The notes beneath the pieces were generated by a model. The model was not told where the DNA came from and made no database searches. It saw nothing but the letters and a program-made list of their open reading frames with translations. From contig JADHZB010002034.1 in the NCBI GenBank assembly GCA_015657535.1, forward strand, positions 18,603 to 82,602: a DNA stretch of 64,000 bases, written 5' to 3'. This document shows, in pieces, positions 5,908 to 43,064 of the stretch. Source of the stretch: Nephromyces sp. MM_2019 (taxonomy: Eukaryota > Apicomplexa > Aconoidasida > Nephromycida). Positions within the stretch are counted from its first letter, which is position 1. The number at the start of each line of letters is the position of its first letter. Made by a program: the position numbers and the translations under genes.

Positions 5908-7749
5908 TTAAAGCTGAGTGTTTGCCAAAATTAAAGTATGTGTCTATTTTTGTCAGCAAAGGTATTTGAATAAGTAGAATATAATTTACTTTAAGCTTTT
6001 ATGAATTGGGCATTAAAATTGCTATATCTTCGAGACGTTGGTTTTATATTCTAAATTTTCTAGAGGTTTTAATTAAGTTTAATGGTAAGGAGTAACAAAA
6101 CGTTGTCTCGATCATGATTATTAGATTGTAGCTCAGGATTTTAATATTTTACAATTCTAGAGAGTTATTTTTCTCAAATTTTACTAAAATGATTATGAAA
6201 CTATACTAAACAAGGTTCTGTATAATCAAATAATAATCATCACTATAAGTTCACAAAAAAATATCTATTAATAGTGTATAGGAGTCAATTTAATAGCCTA
6301 GATTAAAAATCTGACTTGATTTAACTCTTAGTAACAAGTTTCGACAAAATCACAAATCTCTTGCTCAATTTTAATCAACTCAGGCTGGATATCTCTAAAT
6401 TAGATTGATATAAAAATTAATTAAATTAAGAATCAAGGAATTTAGAAACTTGCAACTGCATTTAGTAATTAACTTAGGCTTCATAGCCTAGGCAAAGATA
6501 GAGCTCATTTGTCTATTAGTTTAGTCTCATCACTAGTCGTATTTAAATGGCATAGACTTTTCAAATAGTATTCAATATATCTTTAACACTGAAAAATATA
6601 AAGAATTGTTAAAAGTGTTTAGCCACTAGTTTCATAGTTTTTAGTTTGTCAATCTCAAACTAGTTTTTACAGATTTATGCTGAGTATATTATTTAATAAA
6701 TTCAATCAACCAAAAACTAAGTATTCTTCCTCATTGATGTCATATTCTTTGTTCTAAATAACATTTGAATTTTTATTAAACTCATATCTTTAGGTTCAAC
6801 AAGTTATTATACCTTGGAAAGAACCAACTCGAGTAAAAATTTGAGATAAAAATATTGAAAGCTGTTGATAAGAATTATAAAACACAAGAAAAAATTCTTC
6901 ATATCTTACCTATGCTAGTCTGTTTTAAATTAATTGAATATTAGCCCTGAATCATTGTTTTCATACAAAGTTGGACAAATTTTACCTTGGAAAACTCAAG
7001 AATTCATATTTGAAATTTTTAAAAAAATCCTAAAACATCTCAACTGTAGGAGATGAAATCCATTACAACGTATCATTGAGCATAAATTTAAATCAAGCCG
7101 AAAATTTTGAGTTCTAATTAAAATTAAAATTTCATTTTCAATTGATTGTCTCATAAAATTTCACTCTGGCGCAGTAATATTGTTCCAACATTTGTATAAA
7201 AAAATTTGTACCTTAATTATTCCAACTTCTTTGCCTCAGTTTTATAAAGAAATGGATGACTATGATATAGTTTTCAAAGGTTGTCATTGCCATTATTGAA
7301 AGTCGTTAATGGCCTGTAATTTCCTATTCATCATTTAAAGTTCTTGCAGATTTTTCTGTGCAATTAGGTAAACATTGATCTTTTGAATTTGGATCATGAG
7401 TCATGCTGTTGCAATTTAATTGGTAAGCCTTTCTTTGTTAATCTATGTACAGTGGAATTGATGTAAAATGTATGAATGTGGGTTTAAAATTAAAAAGACT
7501 TTTATAATACGTTCTAAGTTTTTAAGTGTGAAGGATTTAATTATGACTTAGATAAATAAAAAAATATTCTAATTGTATGTAATTGTGGTACAAAACTTTT
7601 TAACGACTTAAACATTGTCGGAGTATAACTTTAATTTGGTGTTTATTATCTAATATAGATAATTATAATGTCAATTTTATGTAGGGTCGTTTGTCTTGGA
7701 GCCTTTGCCTAAATTAAACTAGGATTATTTATTGTTTCATAGCTAAAAA
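5908..7749. other. divergent intergenic region (UBA5 / ApiAP2)
   Basis: About 1.8 kb between two divergently transcribed genes. No open frame of note, no microsatellite and no RNA gene recognised. It probably contains both promoters, but no specific element can be supported. Confidence 0.6.
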
Positions 7750-8463
7750 ATGGAAAATGTAAAAAAAGAGGATCGTATTCCTGGAGTAACTTATGACAGA
7801 AAAAATGAAAGATGGGGGGCGAGATGGAGTGCACCCGATGGTAGAAGGGCTGGAAAATACTTTCCCGTAAGTCAATATGGTTTTGAACACGCTCGTAGGA
7901 TGGCAATTCAATGTCGTAATGATGCGATCAGGGAACATGGTGCCTTAAGAAAACAAGGTAAGCCATCATATGTGAATAAGGAAAGTGGTATAATCACTTG
8001 CAGGAGGATTGAAAATGGTAATAAGTTGGGAAAAAAAAGTAATCCAATTAAAATAAAAATGGAAAATAGCACTTCAAAAAGTAGATTCGATAATATGGAT
8101 CCCGTAAAAAATTATCTTGAGCTTAGCAATATACAGTATGAAGCTCGTGATGAGCCCAGCAAGGCCTCGCCACTTTATGAACAAAGTGATAATTATTTTG
8201 ACACTATTAAAGCAGTCATTTCACGAGAGCCAAATTCGATTAATACAATAAGAAATCACTCAGTTTATGGAAATGCAGTGTGGTTAAAGTCCAGTGTTAT
8301 GGGTATCAACAAGGGGAATGATATCTACTTTACATCACCCAATCATTGCCATGATTGTAGTGATAATGATGATTTTGACACAGAATTACTACGTAATTGT
8401 TTTCACCAGGGTTATGATAATTACACTTCATTAGATAGATCGATCTTTATTTCTCCAGAATAA
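7750..8463 (+). CDS. ApiAP2-type DNA-binding protein, intronless
   Basis: Predicted transcription factor of 237 residues in a single exon. Residues about 12-63 form one AP2 domain: [15 protein letters not shown], a central [18 protein letters not shown] and an amphipathic helix ending near DAIREHG. The [12 protein letters not shown] stretch is characteristic of apicomplexan AP2 proteins (compare their usual YF.V..YGF..AR), where three beta-strands contact DNA and a helix packs behind. The other ~175 residues are low-complexity Asn/Ser-rich sequence with no second AP2 domain. The ATG is the first in frame, and the antisense frames over 7709-7938 are shadows. This is the clearest lineage marker in the window. 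Confidence 0.9.
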
Positions 8464-12326: not shown

Positions 12327-13749
12327 ATGTCTAGCTATGGATATAGAGGTGGAGGTCGTGGTGGAGGAAACCGCGGCGGTGGAGGCGGTAGCGGCGGAGG
12401 CCGAGGAGGATATCGTGGTTCAGGGCCATCTAGCACAGCCGGTTCCAGAGCCCCACCAGTGTCGACAACGGAATCGTCTGTGTCACTATACACAAACTTA
12501 TATAAGATGCAAAAATCATCTATAAAAGTTGATAACTACAAGATATTAGCATTTGACAAACATCAGGATCCAATACAAGGGATCTCTTTTGATAGCCTGA
12601 ATATTATGATTAGAAAAAAGGCTCAACAGGTTAGGATTACTATATCCTAGCCTTGTTCAATTTACCAAGCAATAATTTATTTGTTTACTCAGATAAAAGA
12701 TATAGTTGGATGCCAAAATTATGAAATTAACTCAGGAATGTTAATTTGCCTTAAACCTACTATTTCACCAGAAGAGTTTATAGTTGAATTCGAACAGCAA
12801 GAGGTTAAAACATTCATAACATACTTTAAGCATATTATAACTTTCTGTTCAAATACTTTAGGAGGATCTCTTTGGTGTAAATGCAATATATTTTTCCAAG
12901 AGTAATGAACAAAGCTACTCGGGTAAGTATTAATAAATAAAATGAGATTAACGTTTCCACACAACATAGGCACTCATTTGTATTGAATTTTCACTTTTAT
13001 CAGCCATTGTAAACCACGGAATTTACAGAGGAGTGCTTAAGAAAGCCGCAGGGAAATTGAATGTAATTTTACTCCTTATATTCTATACTTCATTATCATA
13101 AACTTTTCATTGATTCGACACACCTACATACACACATCTCATTATATGCCTTTCCATATATTTACTGATTTATAATTTTTATCAGCTTATGTGGTTTAAC
13201 AATAAGTATTTCTCTTGGCCTACTGAAATTTCACTAGGCAATTATAAGAGTATCTTACGGCCCGCCTTTGATATTACATTGATTCCTTTTGAAAATAATG
13301 AAATGGCTGTACAGGTTATCAAACATATTAGATCTCAACAAACAAACACTTCATGTAAAATGAGTTTTATATAATCATCTAATATGTACTCTTTAAACAA
13401 ATTTAACATTAGATCCTTAATAAGCATTTGGTATTCCCAAAAGAAAATTTAGCATTCTATATAGATTTAATTAAAAGAAGTAAGGAAAATTATATATTCC
13501 TAATCTACTTGTCCATATCTGCTTCATTTTTGATTTTTTTGAAATTTAGTAAACAAAAATCAAATAAACTTGATCAAAAAAGTATCAGAAGACTACTTTC
13601 TTGGAAAACCCATTCTCTTAACTCATCGTACAGGTTTACATAGAATTACTTCTGTAAGTTCCTCAACAATTATATTTAAAAACATATATATGTATATTTT
13701 ATTCAATGTATATATATGTATATAAATGCATATCGTAAAATATTCCATT

Positions 13750-13792
<43 letters not shown>

Positions 13793-16700
13793 TATATCGT
13801 AAAATGTTTTATTTAATTTCTCAGTTTGAGTGGCCTTCTAACCCAACTATTAATTTGGTTGACCGAACATTTGAATTAAACGATAATAGAACTGTTTCTT
13901 TTAGACAATATTTCAAAGTACTAATGTTAAAATTCTTTGTGCTTCATTCACACACATAACAAATAACTCTCACTATCTCTCTTTTAAGGAAAAATATGAT
14001 ATCACCTTTAGTGACAATAAGACATTAGGAATGCCTTTTGTCATACACAATGATCGAAATGGTGTTATCCACAAGTTTCCTGCTTGTTTATGTATTCCTA
14101 AAGGTACTATAAGCGTGTAAATATATCTTTATAAGTATATTTATACAGTCGAGCATACATACATAGCAGAGCATATATACAATCGATTATACACAAACAG
14201 TCGTTTAGTATGTACATACAGCTGAGTCTTTTTAGTTGAATACATATACACAGTTGAAAACATACACGCGAATATGCACACACACTTGTGAGCTCACAAA
14301 TCTTATATATTATTTTGACTATTTCTTCAAGGAAATACATATTTATGTTACTACAGGATATGATTTTAGAGATGGAAAGGAAGACAGCAAACTCAGAGGT
14401 GCTGTATCAAGAACAACTATTAAACCCATTGGTAAGTTTAAGTTTATCTTTTTATTAACTTGTATATAGTTAGATAATAACACACACAAATACTTATATT
14501 CACGCATACAAATCCTCGTAATCCAAACTCGCATATATAAATATATAGATACTATGCATACTTTAAACTCACACAAACCTACATACTCCAAACGCACACA
14601 CATATTTATATATATATATATATAACACACACACATTTAGTCCCTTTAACATCTTAAACTATAATTTGGTATACAATTTTTATATTAGGGGCACGTTTCG
14701 AAACTCATAACAAATTTGTAGATCAATTGAAGAACGGTATCCAAAAATTACCTGATAATCTCAACACGACAATTAGTCCTCAACCTATGGTCGTGGTATG
14801 TATTTCAATAATTACATAATATTTATATATATTATAACAGCGCTCACATCATTATAGCATATAGATACCTTTCAAATATAGAGCTAATACGAAAAAATAC
14901 AAACTTGAAAACCCTACTCTTTTTTTAATACTCCTTATTAGACACATACACATATATATATATATAACTTAAACACAATGATTATTTAAGAATTATAATA
15001 CATACACACACACTGATAAATATATTTATAAATTAAACACAATGATCACAATATATACGAAACTGGTCACGATAACGTTGTTAATAATAATTTTTGTGTA
15101 TACAAATATTTTACACTAAGTATATCCTTAACACATGCAATCAATATATTTTAAATATATACTAGACTGGTGTAAATTTACCTATGAGTATGTTTCAATT
15201 TGAAATAGGAGGAAATCGCACTGAAGGTAGACAAATTTTTATTCAAAACTTAATTAAAATTAAATGTGTGTAATTTATTTTAATATATAGTTCTAAATCA
15301 GTATAGCACCTTCAATGTTAATACATTAAACCAAGTAAATTCTTATAAAATATTCTTTTCTACACATTTCATTACTTAAATGATATTACCTAGTACATGT
15401 ATGTATATATTTAACAATTATACATGTATGTACTAGATAAACTAATATTAATTCCTCCATATTCTAGTTTTGCAATTTAATTAAATTTATTTTAACATAT
15501 ATATGGATATGTATATATAAATACAAGAATGTGGATATATAAATGTAAATATATATTTATATACATATATTTAAGTAATTAATATTTTAAATAGATATCA
15601 TCAATATAATTTATTAACTTGATTTTATAGCCAAGTGATTGCTTCCGTAAATGGGCTATAATTATCCCATCTAATTATAGAAGCCCTGTTGAAAATGTAA
15701 CAAGAGCATTCCGTGATACTATTGATGGTAAATGTGTAACCTGATCTTATTCTAAACCATGAATTTTAGACCCATTTCTATATGGTTATTAAACATCTTG
15801 AATTGTCCTAACTTTAAACACACAAACACACTCACGCGCTCACACACAAACACATACACATATACACGCCCACACACACACACACACATCATTGCATTAG
15901 GAATGCGATTAAATTTTACAAACCCTGAGATTTTAAAAGTAAACAATGTGGATGAAACCCTTGAAAAAGTTACAAGGGATAAATTTACGGCTGTTGTAAT
16001 GATATCAACATCTGATAATGATTACTGTAAATTTAAAGATTGGTTATCATTCAAGAGTAGAGGAATACCTTCACAGGTTAATTTAACCTTTTTATATTTA
16101 AAAAAATAATTTACACATTTTCTGTGTACTCTTTATGAATTGTATTACTCTAAACTCATTTTACTTATAATCCATATACTACTATATACACACTTTCTAT
16201 ATACACAATTTATTTTCTACACAGTTACTATACACACATTTTATTTTTATACATATACACCACCTTTTTCATAGTTAATATATACATAATTTTTATTTAC
16301 ACAGCAACTATCTACATCATTTTTTTTGCACACACATTCTATTGATATATGCTCTAATTATATAGGTAGTAAGAGCATCTACGCTTGAACAACCTGATGA
16401 AAAACGAACAAAAATATTGAAAAATATCATTTTACAAATTCAAGTTAAGGTAAGTTTAATTATTTCAATTTGTATACACAACAAAAATATTTTTCAATTA
16501 AAATTTCAAAATAGTCGGGAGCCTTAGGTTGGAAACCAAGTCGTAGTATTCTTAATCAAGCTCATATTGTTATTGGTATTGCCTCCCAGCAACATATTGG
16601 TTTGTATATATATATATATATACATATACATATTTATATTTATATTTATATTCTTTTCATGAAAGATATATATGTATTTATAAATATATTCATATAGGGA

Positions 16701-18453
16701 AGGACAATCGTTTATTCAGCTTCTTTGCTGATTTAGGACAACAAGTTAAAGCTGATTTCCTTTCAAATGTGTGTAATATGAGACAATTAATATAATTATA
16801 TGACATCAATTTTTGAAAAATTTCTTAGCATGAAACATGTACTTATGAAGAGGGTACAGAACATTTAATAACCTTTACACAGAGTATGTTTATTGTTAGC
16901 AATATTTATAACTTATTTTAATATACAATTTAACATATCTTACATGTTTGTTTCCAAAGATGCAATAAAAAAATTCAAAGATACTAATGGAAAACAGCCG
17001 GAGTTAATCATTTTTTATAAGTAAGCTCAAAATTTTTTTTACTTTATATACACCGACACATATTTATATAATTATTAAAAATTTTTATAATAATAATACA
17101 TAACTCAACTATATGAACTTTTACACATCCTCATATTTTGGCTATTTACATAATTATGAACATATTAACACAATATTATAAGTATACACTACTTATATCA
17201 CACATAAACATAATATCTCAAAAACATATACAAAAAATATCATTCACTAATTATATCTTACATCAAAATAATATCTTGAAAACATACATATATACACAAA
17301 AAATATCATACTCTGCATATGATATATAAAAATAACTTAACACACATACTCACTATATTTATTAAATTTTATTCTTAGGCTCAGCTCTATTACGAACAAC
17401 TTAGATAAAATTATGACAGAAGAATTGAAACCACTTAGAAAAGGCTTACAAAATTATAAAAACTTGAAAATTATTGTACTTTATGCTGTTAAAGATGGCA
17501 GGATGAGGTATATATTGTTATCTTATTTATGTATGTATATAAATAGATATATATTTAATAATTAAAATATTCACATCAGATTTTCATTAAAATCTTACAA
17601 CTCAAATGCGGTTGCAGATTGCTCTAACCCACCACCAAGTTTGTAAACATATAAAATATAAATTATTTTTATATTTTTAAAAATTTTTTTTTTTGATTTT
17701 TTATAAAATTATTTCAAATTTATAATTTAGTGACACTGGTTGATAAAATCGGGTTAAAAGAATCAATTCCACAGTTTTATTGTGTACATCAAAAAGTTTC
17801 ACCACGGGCAACAGCATCTCCTACACTATATTATGTATTACATAATGATATGAGTATGTTGATACATTATTCTTTTTGTATATTTATTCATTATTTATAT
17901 ACTCTATTATATATATATATATCATCATATATATATACTCATTACTTATAAACTCTATTTTTATATAAACATATTTATTTACATATTTATAAACTTATTA
18001 CTTAAACACTCAATTATATATATATTTATCAATATTATTCTTTAGAGACTCCTGATTCATTTAAGCAAATTAAGCACTATACAACGTTATCTTCATGCCT
18101 ATATTTTAATTGGCAAGGTAAACATATATAATCTTATAGCTTAATTTTTTTATATATATTAATTTTTCATACCAACTGTCTTTAAGAACAATTGATATAC
18201 TAGTATTTTGTTTAGTTAATTTGAGTAAATTATCATTGTTTCCTTTAACTCTTTTACAGGTTCTATACCCTTACCTGCTCCCTTGATGTATGCAGACAAG
18301 TAATAAAATTAATAAAGAATTATAAAAATATTTATTTTTTAAATTTAATTTTTATATTTTCTCAGGAATTTGAAATGGCTAACAACTATATATACTTCCT
18401 CAACTCCACCACCGGTTGCCAGAGCCTTAACAACAACTCCTTATATGCTTTAA
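12327..18453 (+). CDS. Argonaute with RGG N-terminus, predicted slicer-inactive, 26 exons
   Basis: Argonaute/PIWI-superfamily protein of about 818 residues, expected to bind small guide RNAs. Exons: 12327-12629, 12693-12803, 12862-12922, 13004-13062, 13186-13314, 13425-13479, 13550-13653, 13825-13917, 13989-14103, 14357-14431, 14689-14795, 15166-15226, 15291-15334, 15631-15727, 15901-16076, 16366-16449, 16515-16599, 16698-16768, 16829-16883, 16960-17020, 17379-17507, 17580-17638, 17731-17853, 18046-18117, 18260-18299, 18366-18453. Order: Gly/Arg repeats (residues 1-35), N domain, PAZ (around VSFRQYFKEKYDI and FPACLCIPK), MID, PIWI ending IPLPAPLMYADK. The 5'-phosphate pocket is largely kept: Y513 and K517 (YCKFK), Q530, K558; one position is Gln554 instead of Lys. 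Slicer positions are lost: A581 in VIGIAS, L650 in FYKL, L744 in PTLY, where active enzymes have Asp, Asp and His. The 44-nt exon at 15291 is required to keep the frame. Confidence 0.88.
13752..13789. repeat. (TA)n microsatellite in Argonaute intron
   Basis: About 19 uninterrupted TA units in the intron before the exon at 13825. The introns of this gene grow longer and more repetitive downstream of this point. Confidence 0.95.
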
Positions 18454-19829
18454 AACTATAGATATTTCCTTTAATATAAAAATTAAAACTATTTAAAAAG
18501 TTAAAATCTTGTATGTTATAATTTCATACTTATATAATCAAGCCTAATTTTAAAAAATTTACAGAATTTTCAAACTGAAAAACTTTAGATTAAATAAGAA
18601 TTTTTAGTTTTACTATCTATATAGGAGAAACACACAAATTTTAGATTTCTTTTATAAATTTATTCCATTATATTTTTTATTAAGCTTTTAATAGATAATT
18701 TCTAAAATAATATACGATATTTAATTTACTTAAGAAAAAAAAATTAATAAATATAAAATTGTAAATATAGTTAAAAATTTCTGTTAGGCGGTAGTGAGCA
18801 TATATATAGATATATATATATTAGATAGTTTTTAATTAGTTAATTTGTTGTCTGTGTTTGTTAAGCCTGTGTCAGAAATGTTGTGTAATTTGTGGGTATT
18901 TTCTTTTATAAAATTGTGTTTTATGTGTATAATATTCTTCCATAAAGCTATCTTCTGTGTAAATTTTAATTAGTCATTTACAATATAAAACTATATTTTT
19001 TATGTTTATTTATTTATTTATAAAGCTATTATGTTCTGTATCTATAATTTTTGTGTGTATATGGTATACACAGCATTTATGTAGAAAAGAATAGGAATCG
19101 ACAAAAATTAAGTTTATTTTATTCTTCCCAAGCTTTACAAACTGTGAATTTTAGTGGCTGTTATTTCTATAGCACTTATATGGCTAACAGAAACTACCTA
19201 CAGTTTGCCCAATTTATTATTTTCTAGTTACGAAAAGGCTTGATAATTTACATAAATAAGTGCCTGTAACTAATTCTTTATCAATTCTGGTAGTTAGCAA
19301 CTCTATATATACACGTGTAAAAGCTTACTTAACAGTCAATGAAATTAATTTTATACTTAGAACTTTCAAATTACACCACGAATTTGAAATCAATCAAAAG
19401 AATTTTTACATTTTGAGAAGATATACAAACCTAAACAGTAAACTGAATTGAGTTAATAGCTTTTTATACTAACATGATAAATGGAATATATTTAGTGTTT
19501 ACAATTCGAGCCCCACTTAAATTTTTCTATACAGCCTATCACTAGTCTCTCGATTCAAAAAGATTGATCTTTAACTTTTCCCCGTTAGAGTATTATTTTG
19601 TCAAAGAAGAAACTTATTGATATTACTAATTTTAAATTATAAATAAATCATATAGAATATTCCACATTGAAACCTAAATAAGTTTAAACTTATTTAAGAA
19701 TATTTCAAAGCAGTTAAGATATAATCAATTTTTTATATATTTAAACGCATAAAAATTATCACAATTTACTTGTATTGTAATATTTACACATCAGATTACT
19801 TTTAGTTGTTTTAAGCTACAATTTTAAAA
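18454..19829. other. A+T-rich spacer between Argonaute and PiT copy 1
   Basis: No gene recognised. The open frame at 19260-19451 starts with GTG, has no motif and is rejected. The spacer should hold the Argonaute poly(A) region and the promoter of the transporter. Confidence 0.6.
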
Positions 19830-21410
19830 ATGGATTTTATTAGAAACTTACAAGAAGCAGCACAAACAAATTACGATGTTCACCCCGATCAGGTGTTCTG
19901 GATCGTTGTTATTGGTGCCATATTTATGGTTGGCATGGGTTTTATGATTGGTGCAAATGATATGGCTAATGTACTAGCCACATCCATTGGTAGCAAAGCA
20001 TTGAAACTATGGCAAGCAGCTATAATTGGAGCAATTGCAGTAACAATTGGTGCTACATTCTTGGGTTCACAAACTGCATCAGCTATTAGAAATAACATTG
20101 TAAATGTAGATCTATTTCAGGATAACCCAACAGTATTAATGTATGGTATGCTTTGCTCACTTATGGGAGCTAGTCTCTGGTTATTCATCGCTACCAAATT
20201 AGAATGGCCTGTTTCCACAACACACTCTATTACTGGAGCTATTTTAGGTTTTGGTTTAGCTCTCGGTAACACCTACGAAGATACTGGCATTACTGTAATT
20301 GATTGGCCAGGTATGGCAGAAATTGCCTTGTCATGGGTCACTTCACCTGTCTTGGCTGGAATATTGAGTGCCTTGTTCTACTTTATTGTAAAAGCCCTCT
20401 TTCTTAAACCACAAGACTCTGATAGAAGGAGCAAAACTTTTTTCTTTTTCTTGTTGTTTGCACTTGGTGAAGTCTTTATTGTATCAATTTTGATGGATAC
20501 TTCCTTTTATTTCCCATTCGCCTGTATGCAAGGAGAGGAAGAAGCAACATCACCATGTATAATGGATGATTGGTTTGCAGCAAATGTTGGTATGGGTTTA
20601 GGTGTTGCAACTGCCGCTAGTATAGTAGTTGCTGCTATAGGTTACTTCTCTATGAAACCATGGATGGATAGAGTAATGAGCGATGAAAATCTAGTTAAAG
20701 AATCAACCACTACTGATTCAGATTTTACAACTGATCAAACTCCACATGATAGAGTCTTTGTTAAGAATCTCCTTGTTGATGTTCATGGAACCTCGTATAG
20801 CGAAAGCAAGAAGGCTCTTGAAATGAGAAAAGCTATGCAAGAATTCTCGCCAAGAACTGAAAAGTTCTTCAGTGTACTTCAAGTACTTTCTGCCGCTTTT
20901 GATTCCTTATCATTAGGTGCTAGTGACATTGCTAATGCCGCAGGTCCTTTCGCTACAATTATCAGTGTATATCAAGAAGGTGAATTGCTTTCACGTGTAG
21001 AAACCCCAATGATATTGCTTTTCGCAGGTGGTGTATGTATTGCACTTGGTATTATTGTTATGGGATATCATGTTGTCAAGACTCTTGGTATCAAACTTGT
21101 TGCTGTTACACCTTCAAGAGGCTTCTGTATTGAAATGTCATCCTCGTTAATTTTGCTTATATTTGCTAACGCCGGTATCCCATTATCATCTACTCATTGC
21201 CAAGTAGGAGCTACCGTTGGCCTTGGTATGACAGAACGAAGAGACCCAAATAACCATACTATGATGCACAAAATATTTGGTAACGCAGTTAACTGGCAAT
21301 TAATGGGACTTATCGCAGCTTCATGGGTTCTAACTATTATTGTAGCTGGTACCTTTTCCGCAATATTCTTTTCATTTGGAGCTTATGCACCTACAATCTT
21401 GAACATCTAA
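19830..21410 (+). CDS. PiT-family sodium/phosphate transporter, intronless copy
   Basis: Inorganic phosphate transporter of the PiT (PHO4/SLC20) family, 526 residues, one uninterrupted exon. Two inverted halves, each with a PiT signature, are visible: GANDMANVLATSIGSK (from residue 41) and a second at 363 that reads GASDIANAAGPFA, so the usual Asn of GAND is Ser. Other family hallmarks are PVSTTHSITGAILGFG and its mirror PLSSTHCQVGATVG. About ten to twelve hydrophobic segments flank a hydrophilic central loop (residues about 285-345) rich in Ser/Thr/Asp. PiT proteins import phosphate with Na+ or H+ at a surface or vacuolar membrane. The next gene is a paralog in the same orientation 1.2 kb downstream, so they arose by duplication. 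This copy's coding sequence is noticeably less A+T-rich than its surroundings. Confidence 0.95.
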   Translation: MDFIRNLQEAAQTNYDVHPDQVFWIVVIGAIFMVGMGFMIGANDMANVLATSIGSKALKLWQAAIIGAIAVTIGATFLGSQTASAIRNNIVNVDLFQDNPTVLMYGMLCSLMGASLWLFIATKLEWPVSTTHSITGAILGFGLALGNTYEDTGITVIDWPGMAEIALSWVTSPVLAGILSALFYFIVKALFLKPQDSDRRSKTFFFFLLFALGEVFIVSILMDTSFYFPFACMQGEEEATSPCIMDDWFAANVGMGLGVATAASIVVAAIGYFSMKPWMDRVMSDENLVKESTTTDSDFTTDQTPHDRVFVKNLLVDVHGTSYSESKKALEMRKAMQEFSPRTEKFFSVLQVLSAAFDSLSLGASDIANAAGPFATIISVYQEGELLSRVETPMILLFAGGVCIALGIIVMGYHVVKTLGIKLVAVTPSRGFCIEMSSSLILLIFANAGIPLSSTHCQVGATVGLGMTERRDPNNHTMMHKIFGNAVNWQLMGLIAASWVLTIIVAGTFSAIFFSFGAYAPTILNI

Positions 21411-22632: not shown

Positions 22633-25600
22633 ATGGCTGCAAACCCCGAGATGTTAACGTAAGTTCAAATTCTTAAGATATATCAAAATTTTTTCCTACA
22701 AAACCTTACCATCTTCTTGCCCTAGCACTAAAATTTCTAAAAAGAATAATCTATTTGATATATATTACATTTTTTTAAAAATAATCATTAGCATCATAAA
22801 ATCTACAAGAATAAGCCTTTGAATACAGCAATGCATGCTTAGTTAAAATTACATGCATAACACAACTAATGAAACTATTTGAGAGGATTTCAACACAGTT
22901 ATTGGAAGCATCCAATAAGCTCACTTTTTATTTTGATTTATAGATGTATGAAAATTTGTGATATGACTCAAAATATAGCTATCATCTTACACTTAATAAA
23001 TACTTTGAAAAGTCTTCCAAAAATCATATTTTCTAAACAAGCTCATGCGTTTCTGAAATTTTACTTTTGAAATTATAATTTTCGAAACTATGCTTTTTCA
23101 AATTAAATGAAAACACACAACTCATAATTTTCAGGCTGGTAATTGTAGGAGCAATAATTATGCTTGCAGTAGCTTTTGTTATTGGAGCTAATGATGTAGC
23201 AAATTCCTTTGGTACTTCTGTTGGTAGCAAATCTCTGACTCTTAGAACGGCCTGTATCCTTGCATCGATATTTGAGACACTGGGAGCCGTTTCACTGGGC
23301 GCTACAGTTGCATCAACATTTGAAAACAATATTATTGACCCCAACCATTTCCAAGACCATGAAAAGATCTTGGCGGTTGGAATGATTACATCATTAATAG
23401 GCTCTATGATTTGGCTATTTGTAGCTACCTATTTTGGTATGCCAGTTTCAACTACCCATTCAATCATTGGAGGGATTTTAGGTTAGATTTAAAAGTCTTA
23501 TTCACTATAAAATGAGTAATTGATGAATAAACAGACACCTCTTACTAAAATTTATAACACATGCTTTAGGCACCCATTTTTTATAAATTTTTCTTGACCC
23601 ATATAATTCAAACATTCTTGAAATAAATTTGACAAATATCCTTTAAATCATATACATAATTATATTATAATTGATAGGATTTGCTATAGCATCGAGCCAC
23701 ATCTCTTCTATCCGCTGGTCCAGTTTAGGTACGATTGCCTTATCATGGTTGTTCTCACCTATTTTATCTGGTTTTATTTCAAGTAAGTGATATACACCAT
23801 ATATGATTTTCTATTTTGCAAGAAAATAAAATTTGATAATTGTTTTCAGTGTTGATATTTTCCATTTTCCGATCTCTTATTTTTCGTCGAAGAAATTCTG
23901 TTGAAAGAGGATTCAAGTAATTATAAATACGCCCCAGAAATACACACATCCTAACCAATTTCTAAATTCTTTTCCTACAGATTTATGTGGATCCTCATTA
24001 CCCTCATTAGCCTTGTTCTAAGTGCTTTCATTCTCTATGGTAACCCAGTATCATTTGGTTTTTCTTGTTACCAAGATGTGGGTGGTACTTCAAAGTTCGT
24101 ATCTCCTTGTGTGCTAGAAAATTGGGCTATCACAAATTTAGGTAAGCTCTTGGAATATATATATGTAATATCAAAATTGATCACAATCATCTTTTTTTAT
24201 ATTCAGCTTATTCAATCCCACTAACTTTTGGTATAACCGTTATCATAGCATCTATATCTAATCTCATCATCTATAATCATGCTCACCGCACTTTAAGACG
24301 CTTCGATTCAAAAGTATCTCATAATGGTGATGAAATATTGGAGGTAATATATATTTAAAGTTATACATGCACAAACAACCCAGCGTATATACATATAACC
24401 ATATAAACACATATATATTGAGCTATCTAGGGAGTATATACACAATTATACACTCATAAATAATAAGCTACTCGGAGTGTATATACATTATAACTATTTA
24501 TATATATTATATTAATGAAATTACATGATCACCTTACTAAATAAATGTGTTTATACACATATCTTTCCCACCAAATTCCAAATTCTCTTTAACACAGTCT
24601 ATATATAGAAATACTTTTTACATACATACAAACTGGATAACAACAAATACACTATTTTTACAGTTCTCTACAATTAAGCATGTAACAAGTCATGATGGAG
24701 AGTCTGAACCATTATGGGAGGAAGATCCTACACAAAATGAATCATCTAATCCTAATTCTAGCAACTCATCTCCTACACACTCTGACTTATCTGATTCAAA
24801 GGTTACAGCAGCACTAAAATTAACTACAGATGGTCGAGAAACTAAGAAGAACAACTTTAAGGTCAACTTTTCCGTTGATGATGTAATTCAAAAATCAAAG
24901 TCACTTAAAAAATTGTATTCAACCGGTGAGAAATTTGAAGAAAGAACAGAAGCCTTCTCTGGTGCTGTACAAATATTTTCAGCTTGTTTTGCTAGTCTTT
25001 CACATGGAGCCAATGATGTCTCTAATGCTGTTGGGCCTTTTGCTACTATCTACTCACTATATAAATATGGCCTACAAGACTCTACAACTACACCTCATTG
25101 GGTTTTATTTTTATGCGGTTTATTCATCTCTTTAGGACTAGCTCTTTATGGTTACAAAGTGATAAAAACTATTGGTATAAAGATGATACACATGACACCA
25201 TGTCGAGGTGTATGTATTGAAAGTGCTACCGCTTTCACAGTTGTTATATTTTCAAAGTTGGGTGTACCCCTATCTACTACTTATTGTCAAGTTGGTTCAA
25301 TCATTGGTGTTGGTATGCTTGAACCAAGAACACAAGTATGTTTTCTTACCCCTTAACCTTACATCTCAATAGATAGATACATTTTGACGTATATATATAT
25401 AACACTTTTTGATACTCATTTAACATACTCTTTAACTCCTATAGATTCAACATACTTTTCGATTTGATATACACTTCTGCAACATACTCTTTTGACACAT
25501 ATATTTACAAATCTATTTTTAGTCATTAAAAATATTCAATTAATTTATATAATGTTTTTAGGATTCTAAGGGTATTGACTGGATACTTGGAAGATCTGTT

Positions 25601-40137: not shown

Positions 40138-43064
40138 ATGGAAAATGATAATAATGAACGACCTGGGGCAGAGCCTCTTTACTATTTTGCAATTCTCTCT
40201 CTCATGCTCCTTTGGATACAAGGAGAACGTTCTGATGGATCTCCTTCAAGTCAAGCTACTAAACCACAAGTGTGTACACATATTTAACACATGTTTATCT
40301 TTGAGGGGGGTTAGAGTGTGTTTGTGGGTGTGTGTGTATGGGTGTGTGGGTAAATGTGTATGTGATTTAATGAGATGTATGTATTGTGTTGTGATGTGAT
40401 ATGCGTACTGTGTTGTAATATGTGTACTATGATAAGATGTGATATGTGTATTGTTATGTGTATATTTCAGTTTATAATTTTCATATATGTATGAAAATTT
40501 GTGTACACATATCAAAACCATCTACATATATAAATATGATTATATATTTCCTCTAATATCACTATAATCCATACAAACAAAATTTTAACACAAATAACAT
40601 TCTTTCCCCCCCTCAAATACACTATATTCCACACACATACTCCCAACCCCCCAACACACACACATATATATATATATGTTATAGACAATCTGGGACTCAT
40701 CAAAATTACCAATGCATAATGTAGTATTAACACACATGAGTCCAGATTTTGTAACACCTACAACAACATATTTATTGTCACAAAATTTTATATATACAAT
40801 ACAACCCCCACACACACAAAATGAAAATTTACACTCATTTCCACAAACACCATCACGATTTCAACTCACTTTACAACCTAATGTGTTATCTGATCAACTT
40901 TGGTTAACTAGTGATTTCTCACAGGCCCAAAACAATCACACATTTTGTGAAATAATTTCAATATTACCAGATTACACACTACATCATTTAATGGAATTAC
41001 CTGGGTGTAACAATACACATAAAGATTTAGGTTTTAGCATATGTTATATAGCATTAATACGTTTACCTAGGAGTGAATGTAATCATAGTAAATATGGTTG
41101 CCTTAATCAATCTCATGATGAAATACACACACCTTCATGGACATGTAGTCATACTACTAATACGAGTTACACACAAGATAGTAATTTTTGTATTGAATTA
41201 ATATCATCCTCATCCATACAAGATATCTATGAATATGCACACACACGAGATGCACAAATCAGTTCAGATACACACACGCAAAATAATTCAGATACACACA
41301 CGCAAAATAATTCAGATACACACACACACACACTGGATGATAATTTATGCCTCTTTAATACACAACAAAAACAAAATAAACTAGTCGCAGGGAAAATAGT
41401 TTCATTCTGTGCTAACCCACTCTTTCATTCACTAGCTATTGACTCTGAAGGGAAAAAGATATTCTTTACACAATCAACACATTTTAATGAAACGTATACA
41501 AATTTACAAACACAAGATTCTACACACATAAATGCAACTGTTGAGGATGAAAAGGTTAGAATGTTATCAAGTGATAATACACACACCTTATATCAAGAAA
41601 ATATCACAAAAAATGATTTATTTGATGATATACACATCAAACAGATGGTGAATAATGTATTATCAATGAATCACACATATAGAAACCTTAATGATGAACC
41701 TATACACACACATGATAATAAGAAATCTATAAATAATATACATACACATGATTTTGATAAACTCTTACTATGGAGTTCTAATTCACATCGTCATCTTGAT
41801 GATACTACACACACACATGATCTTAGAATGGGTTATAATTCATTTGATGATACTACACACACACATGATCTTAGAATGGGTTATAATTCATTTGATGATA
41901 CTACATACACACATGATCTTAGAATGGGTTATAATTCATTTGATGATACTACACACACACATATTTCTAAAGGGAATAATGACACACACGCATCATACAT
42001 ACGCAACCTACAACACAAACATAAACTCTCTGATCAACCATCTCACACATCACACATCTTACCTAGATCATGTATATCTGCTATATCATTAGCCCCACAA
42101 CACTTGGACCTTACACAGTGTGTAAACTTACCTACAATTTCAAGCAAATCTTTACCTACACACATTATATATGAAGAAACATCTATGAAATTAATTACGT
42201 TCTCATTTGATGAAGAGAGAGCACTTATTGTGAGTGTACTCGATAAAAATACACACCTACTTGAATATAGTATGCGATTCAATCACTTTCATTCAGGTGT
42301 GTGTTGTATGTGTGTGTGTCTGTGTGTGTGTGTGTGTGGAGAGGGGTGGGGGCAGGGGAAAGGTGCGTGTGTAAATCTGGATGCGTGTGGGGGGGGAAGG
42401 GTGGGGGTGCGTGTGTATGTGTATATATATATGCGCGTGTGTGTTTATGTATATATATATATGTGCGTGTGTGTTTATGTATATATATATATGTGCGTGT
42501 GTGTTTATGTATATATATATATGTGCGTGTGTGTTTATGTATATATGTGCGTGTGTGTTTATGTATATATATATATGTGCGTGTGTGTTTATGTATATAT
42601 GTGCGTGTATGTTTATGTATATATGTGCGTGTATGTTTATGTATATACATATGTATGTGTGTGTATGTGTAAATACATATGTGTGTGTGAGAGGGGGGAT
42701 TTATGAATATATATTTATATTTACTATGTTTCAATATAATAATAATTTTCCTAAAATATATCCAGGCTGGTTCCTTACAAATACTTTTTCTAATGATGGA
42801 TATTTATTTATAATTAGTAAGTTATTCATATAAATTGTTTTATATCTACAAACTTGATAACATATTATATTTACACACATATTTAATAATATAATATATA
42901 ATTTACACACACATTTAAGAATATTATATATATAATTTACACACATATTTAATAATATTATATATACATTTACAGAGGATGGTGATATGTTAATGCACAC
43001 AGTCCATGCTATAAATTTAACAAAAGGCAGAATTTCATCATCACATCCATCAACAATCCCATAA
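40138..43064 (+). CDS. membrane-anchored protein with Thr/His-rich repeats, function unknown
   Basis: I do not recognise this family. Four exons: 40138-40269, 40685-42296, 42766-42816, 42976-43064; about 627 residues. A single hydrophobic segment near residues 15-30 (YYFAILSLMLLWIQ) follows a short charged start and looks like a signal-anchor or uncleaved signal. The first ~130 residues after it have several Cys (CNNTH, SICYIAL, SECNHS, YGCLN) and read as a folded lumenal or external domain. The middle is low-complexity Thr/His/Asp/Asn, including three NNSDTHTQ-like units and a 16-residue repeat (DDTTHTHDLRMGYNSF) in about 3.5 copies. The C-terminal ~120 residues (LITFSFDEERALIVSVLDK, then LTNTFSNDGYLFII and KDGDMLMHTV) have a beta-propeller-like rhythm. 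The repeats derive from CA microsatellite sequence that is read as codons. Confidence 0.72.
41798..41961 (+). repeat. 48-bp in-frame coding repeat
   Basis: GATGATACTAC starts copies at 41798, 41846, 41894 and a partial one at 41942. The 48-bp period keeps the reading frame, and copies are almost identical, so the expansion is recent. Confidence 0.95.
42421..42650. repeat. 30-bp tandem repeat in intron
   Basis: Units combine GTGTGTTTATG with a TATATATATATATGTGCG stretch. Most are 30 bp and some are shortened by loss of TA pairs. It lies in the intron following the exon that ends at 42296. Confidence 0.9.

Follow-up and report, generated by a model that had tools for sequence, protein, structure and literature searches.

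The 64,000-nucleotide window analysed here, part of contig JADHZB010002034.1, carries a spliced Argonaute-family gene, Ago-A, whose product is probably best explained as an intact-looking, PIWI-clade guide binder of an apicomplexan that does not slice. Judged from its sequence, the protein appears to belong with PIWI proteins, to retain a complete pocket of the metal-dependent type for the guide 5′ phosphate, and to have lost both RNase-H aspartates while bearing Asp at the fourth catalytic position. The original prediction had cast it as an Argonaute that binds guides without cutting; the loss of slicer residues beside a kept pocket agrees with this, but PIWI is a nearer clade than the AGO framing it used, and the fourth position holds Asp where Leu had been proposed.

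Ago-A lies at window positions 12327–18453 on the plus strand, as do all of its features given below, and the coordinates and spliced character first proposed for it are borne out by a model of 25 exons encoding 835 residues. Its 24 introns, all GT-AG, measure 21–370 bases, the joined coding length is 2508 nt, and G+C content is 0.346 in exons and 0.211 in introns. The sole stop in the joined frame is its last codon; the two alternative frames contain 59 and 99, and 500 base shuffles of the joined sequence averaged 62.7, with 35 the lowest count. Because exons were picked partly with open frames and family motifs in view, these counts support the model rather than providing an independent, unbiased test of it. 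In HMMER, residues 183–809 align to a Piwi as a single stretch covering 21 of the 24 joins, and Pfam Piwi (PF02171) matches residues 520–808 at 100.7 bits (cut-off 28.9). The weakest join is that of exons 12 and 13, with a GTGTAA donor; it may account for the original residue numbers all falling 17 below those used here, residue identities otherwise agreeing. At the N-terminus, a Gly/Arg (RGG/RG) tail can be read from the sequence (residues 1–34; 12327–12428). One modelled intron of 21 bases (12630–12650), which contains an in-frame stop, stands out among the others, which span 58 to 370 bases; introns near 21 bases are known from piroplasms.

Sequence comparisons of several kinds group Ago-A with the PIWI clade and not with AGO. 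In the Protein Data Bank (PDB), it matched 11 sequences at E ≤ 0.001, every one a PIWI, with a best E of 5.8e-22. For Ago-B, a second Argonaute of the same genome, 44 sequences were returned, the first 27 rows being AGO-type (one labelled ‘Uncharacterized protein’) and the first PIWI appearing 28th, and a fungal AGO used as a control query ranked AGO chains first. Profile scores divide the two proteins in the same manner: Ago-A reaches 136.8 bits against PIWI versus 47.6 against AGO, so that its nearest profile is not that of the AGO clade, and Ago-B reaches 98.6 versus 247.1. Eight leave-one-out controls and P0005, a Diaporthe batatas Argonaute outside both profiles, all scored higher on their own side. 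An unrooted tree of 11 sequences places Ago-A with the PIWIs against the AGOs and Ago-B (100/99), and a MID-PIWI alignment stripped of the regions around the catalytic sites recovers that split, again unrooted (100/98). Three PIWIs share a residue that AGO1 does not have at 63 columns; in these, Ago-A carries the PIWI residue 23 times and the AGO1 residue 9 times, and the corresponding counts for Ago-B are 7 and 17.

Finer placement within this framework is less firm. The three PIWIs group without Ago-A at 93/98 in the first tree and are unresolved in the MID-PIWI tree, so that Ago-A may fall either within the animal PIWIs or immediately next to them; it could even be a third, deep line, should the root fall on the right branch. 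None of 4432 candidates in a protein database matched Ago-A residues 100–835 at E ≤ 0.001; Ago-B residues 520–870, with 4867 candidates, had five matches, four of them fungal and one without a name, and a scan of a genome collection for a tree outgroup gave 44 pattern matches with no relative among them. PIWI-clade proteins bind piRNA-like guides that are 2′-O-methylated at the 3′ end.

In another reading, in our view unlikely, Ago-A is a fast-evolving orthologue of the Toxoplasma AGO (Tg-AGO; ‘PIWI-Api’), and its PIWI affinity arises spuriously from sparse sampling and a long branch. By description the two proteins are alike in several respects: Tg-AGO is apicomplexan, was reported in 2010 to be missing slicer residues while keeping the MID pocket residues Y596, K600, Q610 and K644 and an N-terminal RGG tail, and was classed, on weak support, as AGO-like (PMC2877743). 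A 2023 review describes it as resembling PIWI and as cleaving weakly, yet places it close to the AGOs of plants and algae in a tree (PMC9935688), and both articles state that evidence for a PIWI protein in Toxoplasma is lacking. Against orthology stand the exclusively PIWI matches of Ago-A in the PDB, profile scores 89 bits apart, and its PIWI-type Gln and terminal Leu. Published description sets the two apart further, as the catalytic residues of Tg-AGO are given as E/S/E (PMC9935688) and those of Ago-A read A/L/D; Tg-AGO is also described there as the only, AGO-like, Argonaute locus of its genome, in contrast to a PIWI-type Ago-A accompanied by a second Argonaute with a DEDD set.

Active slicers have a DEDX set, comprising two RNase-H Asp residues, a Glu finger, and His or Asp; Ago-A has A598 and L667 at the two Asp positions. 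These were read from a MAFFT alignment of 11 sequences (Ago-A, Ago-B, three PIWIs, human AGO1, four fungal AGOs, and one further AGO), in 10 of its rows, the fungal row P0002 being left out. A598 (16581–16583; VIGIAS versus VGYD) lies inside exon 16, distant from the exon ends; an HMMER alignment to Siwi agrees on it, one to Drosophila Piwi is offset by one or two residues, and neither gives Asp. L667 (17380–17382; KLSS versus RDGV), at the third position, directly follows the join of exons 19 and 20, where a different splice might restore the aspartate, an outcome that the original prediction had named as evidence against itself. A test of GT-AG joins around L667, limited to donors lying within 117 bases, to introns no shorter than 20 bases, and to products of at most 60 residues, yielded four open alternatives, none with Asp within four residues after IIFY and two losing IIFY itself. 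Within that scope, joins restoring Asp at 667 are ruled out.

Of the three catalytic residues originally declared lost, the first and third hold under present numbering (A581 is A598, L650 is L667), but the call of Leu at the His position (L744) does not. That residue, L761 (17826–17828; PTLY), occupies a noncatalytic column reading PSHY in human AGO1 and PTSY or PTYY in PIWIs. Both HMMER and MAFFT align the true fourth position with D806 (18295–18297; YADK versus YAHK of Siwi), in a column that holds His874 in Siwi, Lys818 in Drosophila Piwi, and Arg in AGO1 (YYAR), and that is also Asp in Ago-B and in the three fungal rows shown with residues there, P0001, P0004, and P0005. For the Glu finger, the candidate region includes E634, E635, and E638 (16847–16861), and its register differs between methods, HMMER selecting E635 and MAFFT H639, a choice that sequence alone cannot fix. 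Nor does the fungal P0005 have Asp in first or third place (MGYGTT, YRYGV), and slicer loss may therefore recur among AGOs.

The retention of D806 and nearby Glu residues leaves some room for a protein that still cuts weakly, or that cuts with another nuclease, in the way that Tg-AGO has been described to cleave weakly and to bind a Tudor nuclease (PMC9935688). With both RNase-H site aspartates gone from Ago-A, we regard this as very improbable indeed; in Siwi, the single change H874K nearly abolished slicer activity (PMC7015924), although it concerns a different one of the four positions.

The guide pocket presents the opposite picture. In the crystal structure of Drosophila Piwi, the 5′ phosphate is contacted by Tyr551, Lys555, Gln567, and Lys593, and a metal is held by Gln589 and the C-terminal carboxyl of Leu843; eukaryotic AGOs have Lys where Piwi has Gln589 (PMC7015924). 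By alignment, Ago-A possesses Y530 (16023–16025), K534 (16035–16037), and Q547 (16074–16076) in the stretch 16023–16076, counterparts of Tyr551, Lys555, and Gln567, then Q571 (16435–16437) and K575 (16447–16449) in the stretch 16435–16449, and finally, in the gene model, a C-terminal L835 (PYML; 18448–18450) corresponding to Leu843. Four of these had been recognized from the outset (as Y513, K517, Q530, and K558), but the fifth, then numbered Q554, was taken to replace a Lys. Since Q571 is the usual PIWI-clade residue at the position of AGO2 Lys566, it does not mark a lost pocket Lys, and the 5′ pocket appears complete, with PIWI-type marks both here and at the C-terminus and with metal binding predicted. 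All five pocket side chains are kept; over the region starting at residue 455, the figure for PIWI-invariant columns is 39 of 82.

Several observations nonetheless weigh against our reading of Ago-A as a probable non-slicing guide binder. Its branch is very long (3.33 and 3.78 changes per site), it is 20–22% identical to PIWIs, and the trees comprise 11 sequences, unrooted, with neither a ciliate PIWI nor the Toxoplasma AGO. The Pfam PAZ profile (PF02170), whose match at residues 253–334 lies within exons 6–9 (13413–14103), scores 26.9 bits, below its cut-off of 28.8 (E 4.9e-6). Eight other Argonautes, P0002 and P0005 not among them, share 19 invariant columns; Ago-A keeps only 9, and the lost columns include 573 and 576, which flank pocket residue K575. 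This weak PAZ match, the large divergence, and the changed residues beside the pocket are what one might expect of a protein scaffold that no longer binds guides; retention of all five pocket side chains together with the terminal Leu argues in the other direction, and we consider such a scaffold quite unlikely.

Further silencing genes were sought in the 48.3-Mb assembly (1127 contigs). A six-frame search found a sole Piwi-domain match, Ago-B, on contig C1005, with 12 exons and 897 residues; it belongs to the AGO clade and preserves all four DEDD residues, in the motifs GADVT, TEIIED, YLRDGV, and KAADVA. The same search missed the PIWI domain of Ago-A itself, presumably because of its introns, and further Argonautes could also have been missed. 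Among the best candidates, all 23 matches to Ago-A as a genome query fell within its own gene, and the one match in a PAZ search of the genome belongs to Ago-B.

The original prediction had named another Argonaute locus, its tetrad intact, as a possible sign that Ago-A is a decaying copy. Such an Argonaute exists, and 43 of the 82 PIWI-invariant columns are changed in Ago-A, as might follow had it been left behind once the DEDD protein took over. The remainder of the evidence tells against decay: the two proteins are in different clades, hence no recent copy, and Ago-A is open through 25 exons with its pocket residues kept. We therefore think decay very unlikely. Origin of Ago-A as a recent duplicate of Ago-B was ruled out, both by these separate clades and by rejection of the two as a sister pair (p-AU 0.0019, and 0.0103 in a second analysis).

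A look for Dicer and RNA-dependent RNA polymerase (RdRP), suggested with the original prediction, succeeded in part. Contig C1007 encodes two RNase III domains in tandem, 1.4 kb apart, and this putative gene looks Dicer-like; by eye, the open reading frame (ORF) before them resembles the final part of a Dicer helicase, although Pfam gave no match for it. Elsewhere, contig C147 (L016) bears a further RNase III piece (LEFLGDAILDM), perhaps a second Dicer. For RdRP, profile PF05183 matched nowhere in the genome, nor did its control, and a motif search gave six matches, none convincing on reading, versus 15 for a reversed control. Transposon domains comprise at least six reverse transcriptases (one below cut-off) and at least six integrases (five below cut-off), too few matches for any argument to be drawn from them.

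Mechanistically, Ago-A would load small guide RNAs, which the Dicer-like gene may supply, and would not slice; silencing or RNA processing would instead proceed by holding the target and recruiting partners through the RGG tail and PIWI surfaces, with any cutting left to the separate DEDD protein Ago-B. Two known proteins offer possible models. Drosophila Piwi, a non-slicer proposed to act in this way in transcriptional silencing, shares with Ago-A its clade and the metal-dependent pocket of Tyr/Lys/Gln/Gln/Lys plus terminal Leu, and is proposed to have abandoned slicing so as to remain bound where the target matches only in part (PMC7015924). Its DVDK tetrad keeps both Asp residues and is without the Glu and His, whereas Ago-A has lost both Asp and has Asp in fourth place; the setting differs too, animal gonads in one case and an apicomplexan in the other. 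Tetrahymena Twi12, a PAZ/PIWI protein from another alveolate, is described as binding tRNA fragments and acting together with the nuclease Xrn2 (PMC6562869). Ago-A may follow one of these modes or neither.

We hold with the same moderate confidence, jointly with the functional reading, that the host of Ago-A is an apicomplexan related to Cardiosporidium. The phosphate transporter encoded 1.4 kb downstream has Cardiosporidium cionae as its partner (100/98; 47% identity) in a tree built on 18 sequences, of which 17 were chosen from 120 listed matches. This tree and an upstream ORF (7747–8463) encoding an AP2 DNA-binding domain (51.2 bits), as in ApiAP2 factors, fit an apicomplexan host; a single gene is thin evidence for any closer placement. 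Contamination from an animal host was rejected, as Ago-A and Ago-B are only 18–28% identical to the animal proteins compared, too unlike for such an origin.

Two PiT-type phosphate transporter ORFs (19815–21410 and 24541–25356) are on the same strand, 3.1 kb apart, scoring 337.7 and 166.3 bits against PF01384, the second over part of the profile only. Thr-His runs, probably derived from CA repeats, occur within long open frames at window positions 40685–42706 and at L015:4876–6438; the frames concerned include the Dicer-like ORF, where a THTHKHDE-like unit is repeated. Scanning the window for Rfam families and for tRNAs gave no match in either case.

A non-cutting Argonaute is already known in Apicomplexa from the Toxoplasma AGO (PMC2877743). 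What appears new for the phylum is a PIWI-type non-cutter beside a separate AGO slicer, a combination of which we saw no report in searches of an open library that lacks most subscription papers. It is conceivable, if doubtful, that early apicomplexans had both a slicer of the AGO clade and a non-slicer of the PIWI clade, splitting cutting from recruitment as animal piRNA pathways do, and that this lineage keeps both where others lost one or both, the Toxoplasma AGO being a remnant. The 2023 review calls for Argonautes from other apicomplexans to settle the question of PIWI-like versus AGO-like (PMC9935688), and a genome that holds both types, one of which its sequence marks as a non-cutter, opens that question to direct test. 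The pair offers a comparison for the puzzling coccidian Argonaute, and bears on how Plasmodium lost RNA silencing.

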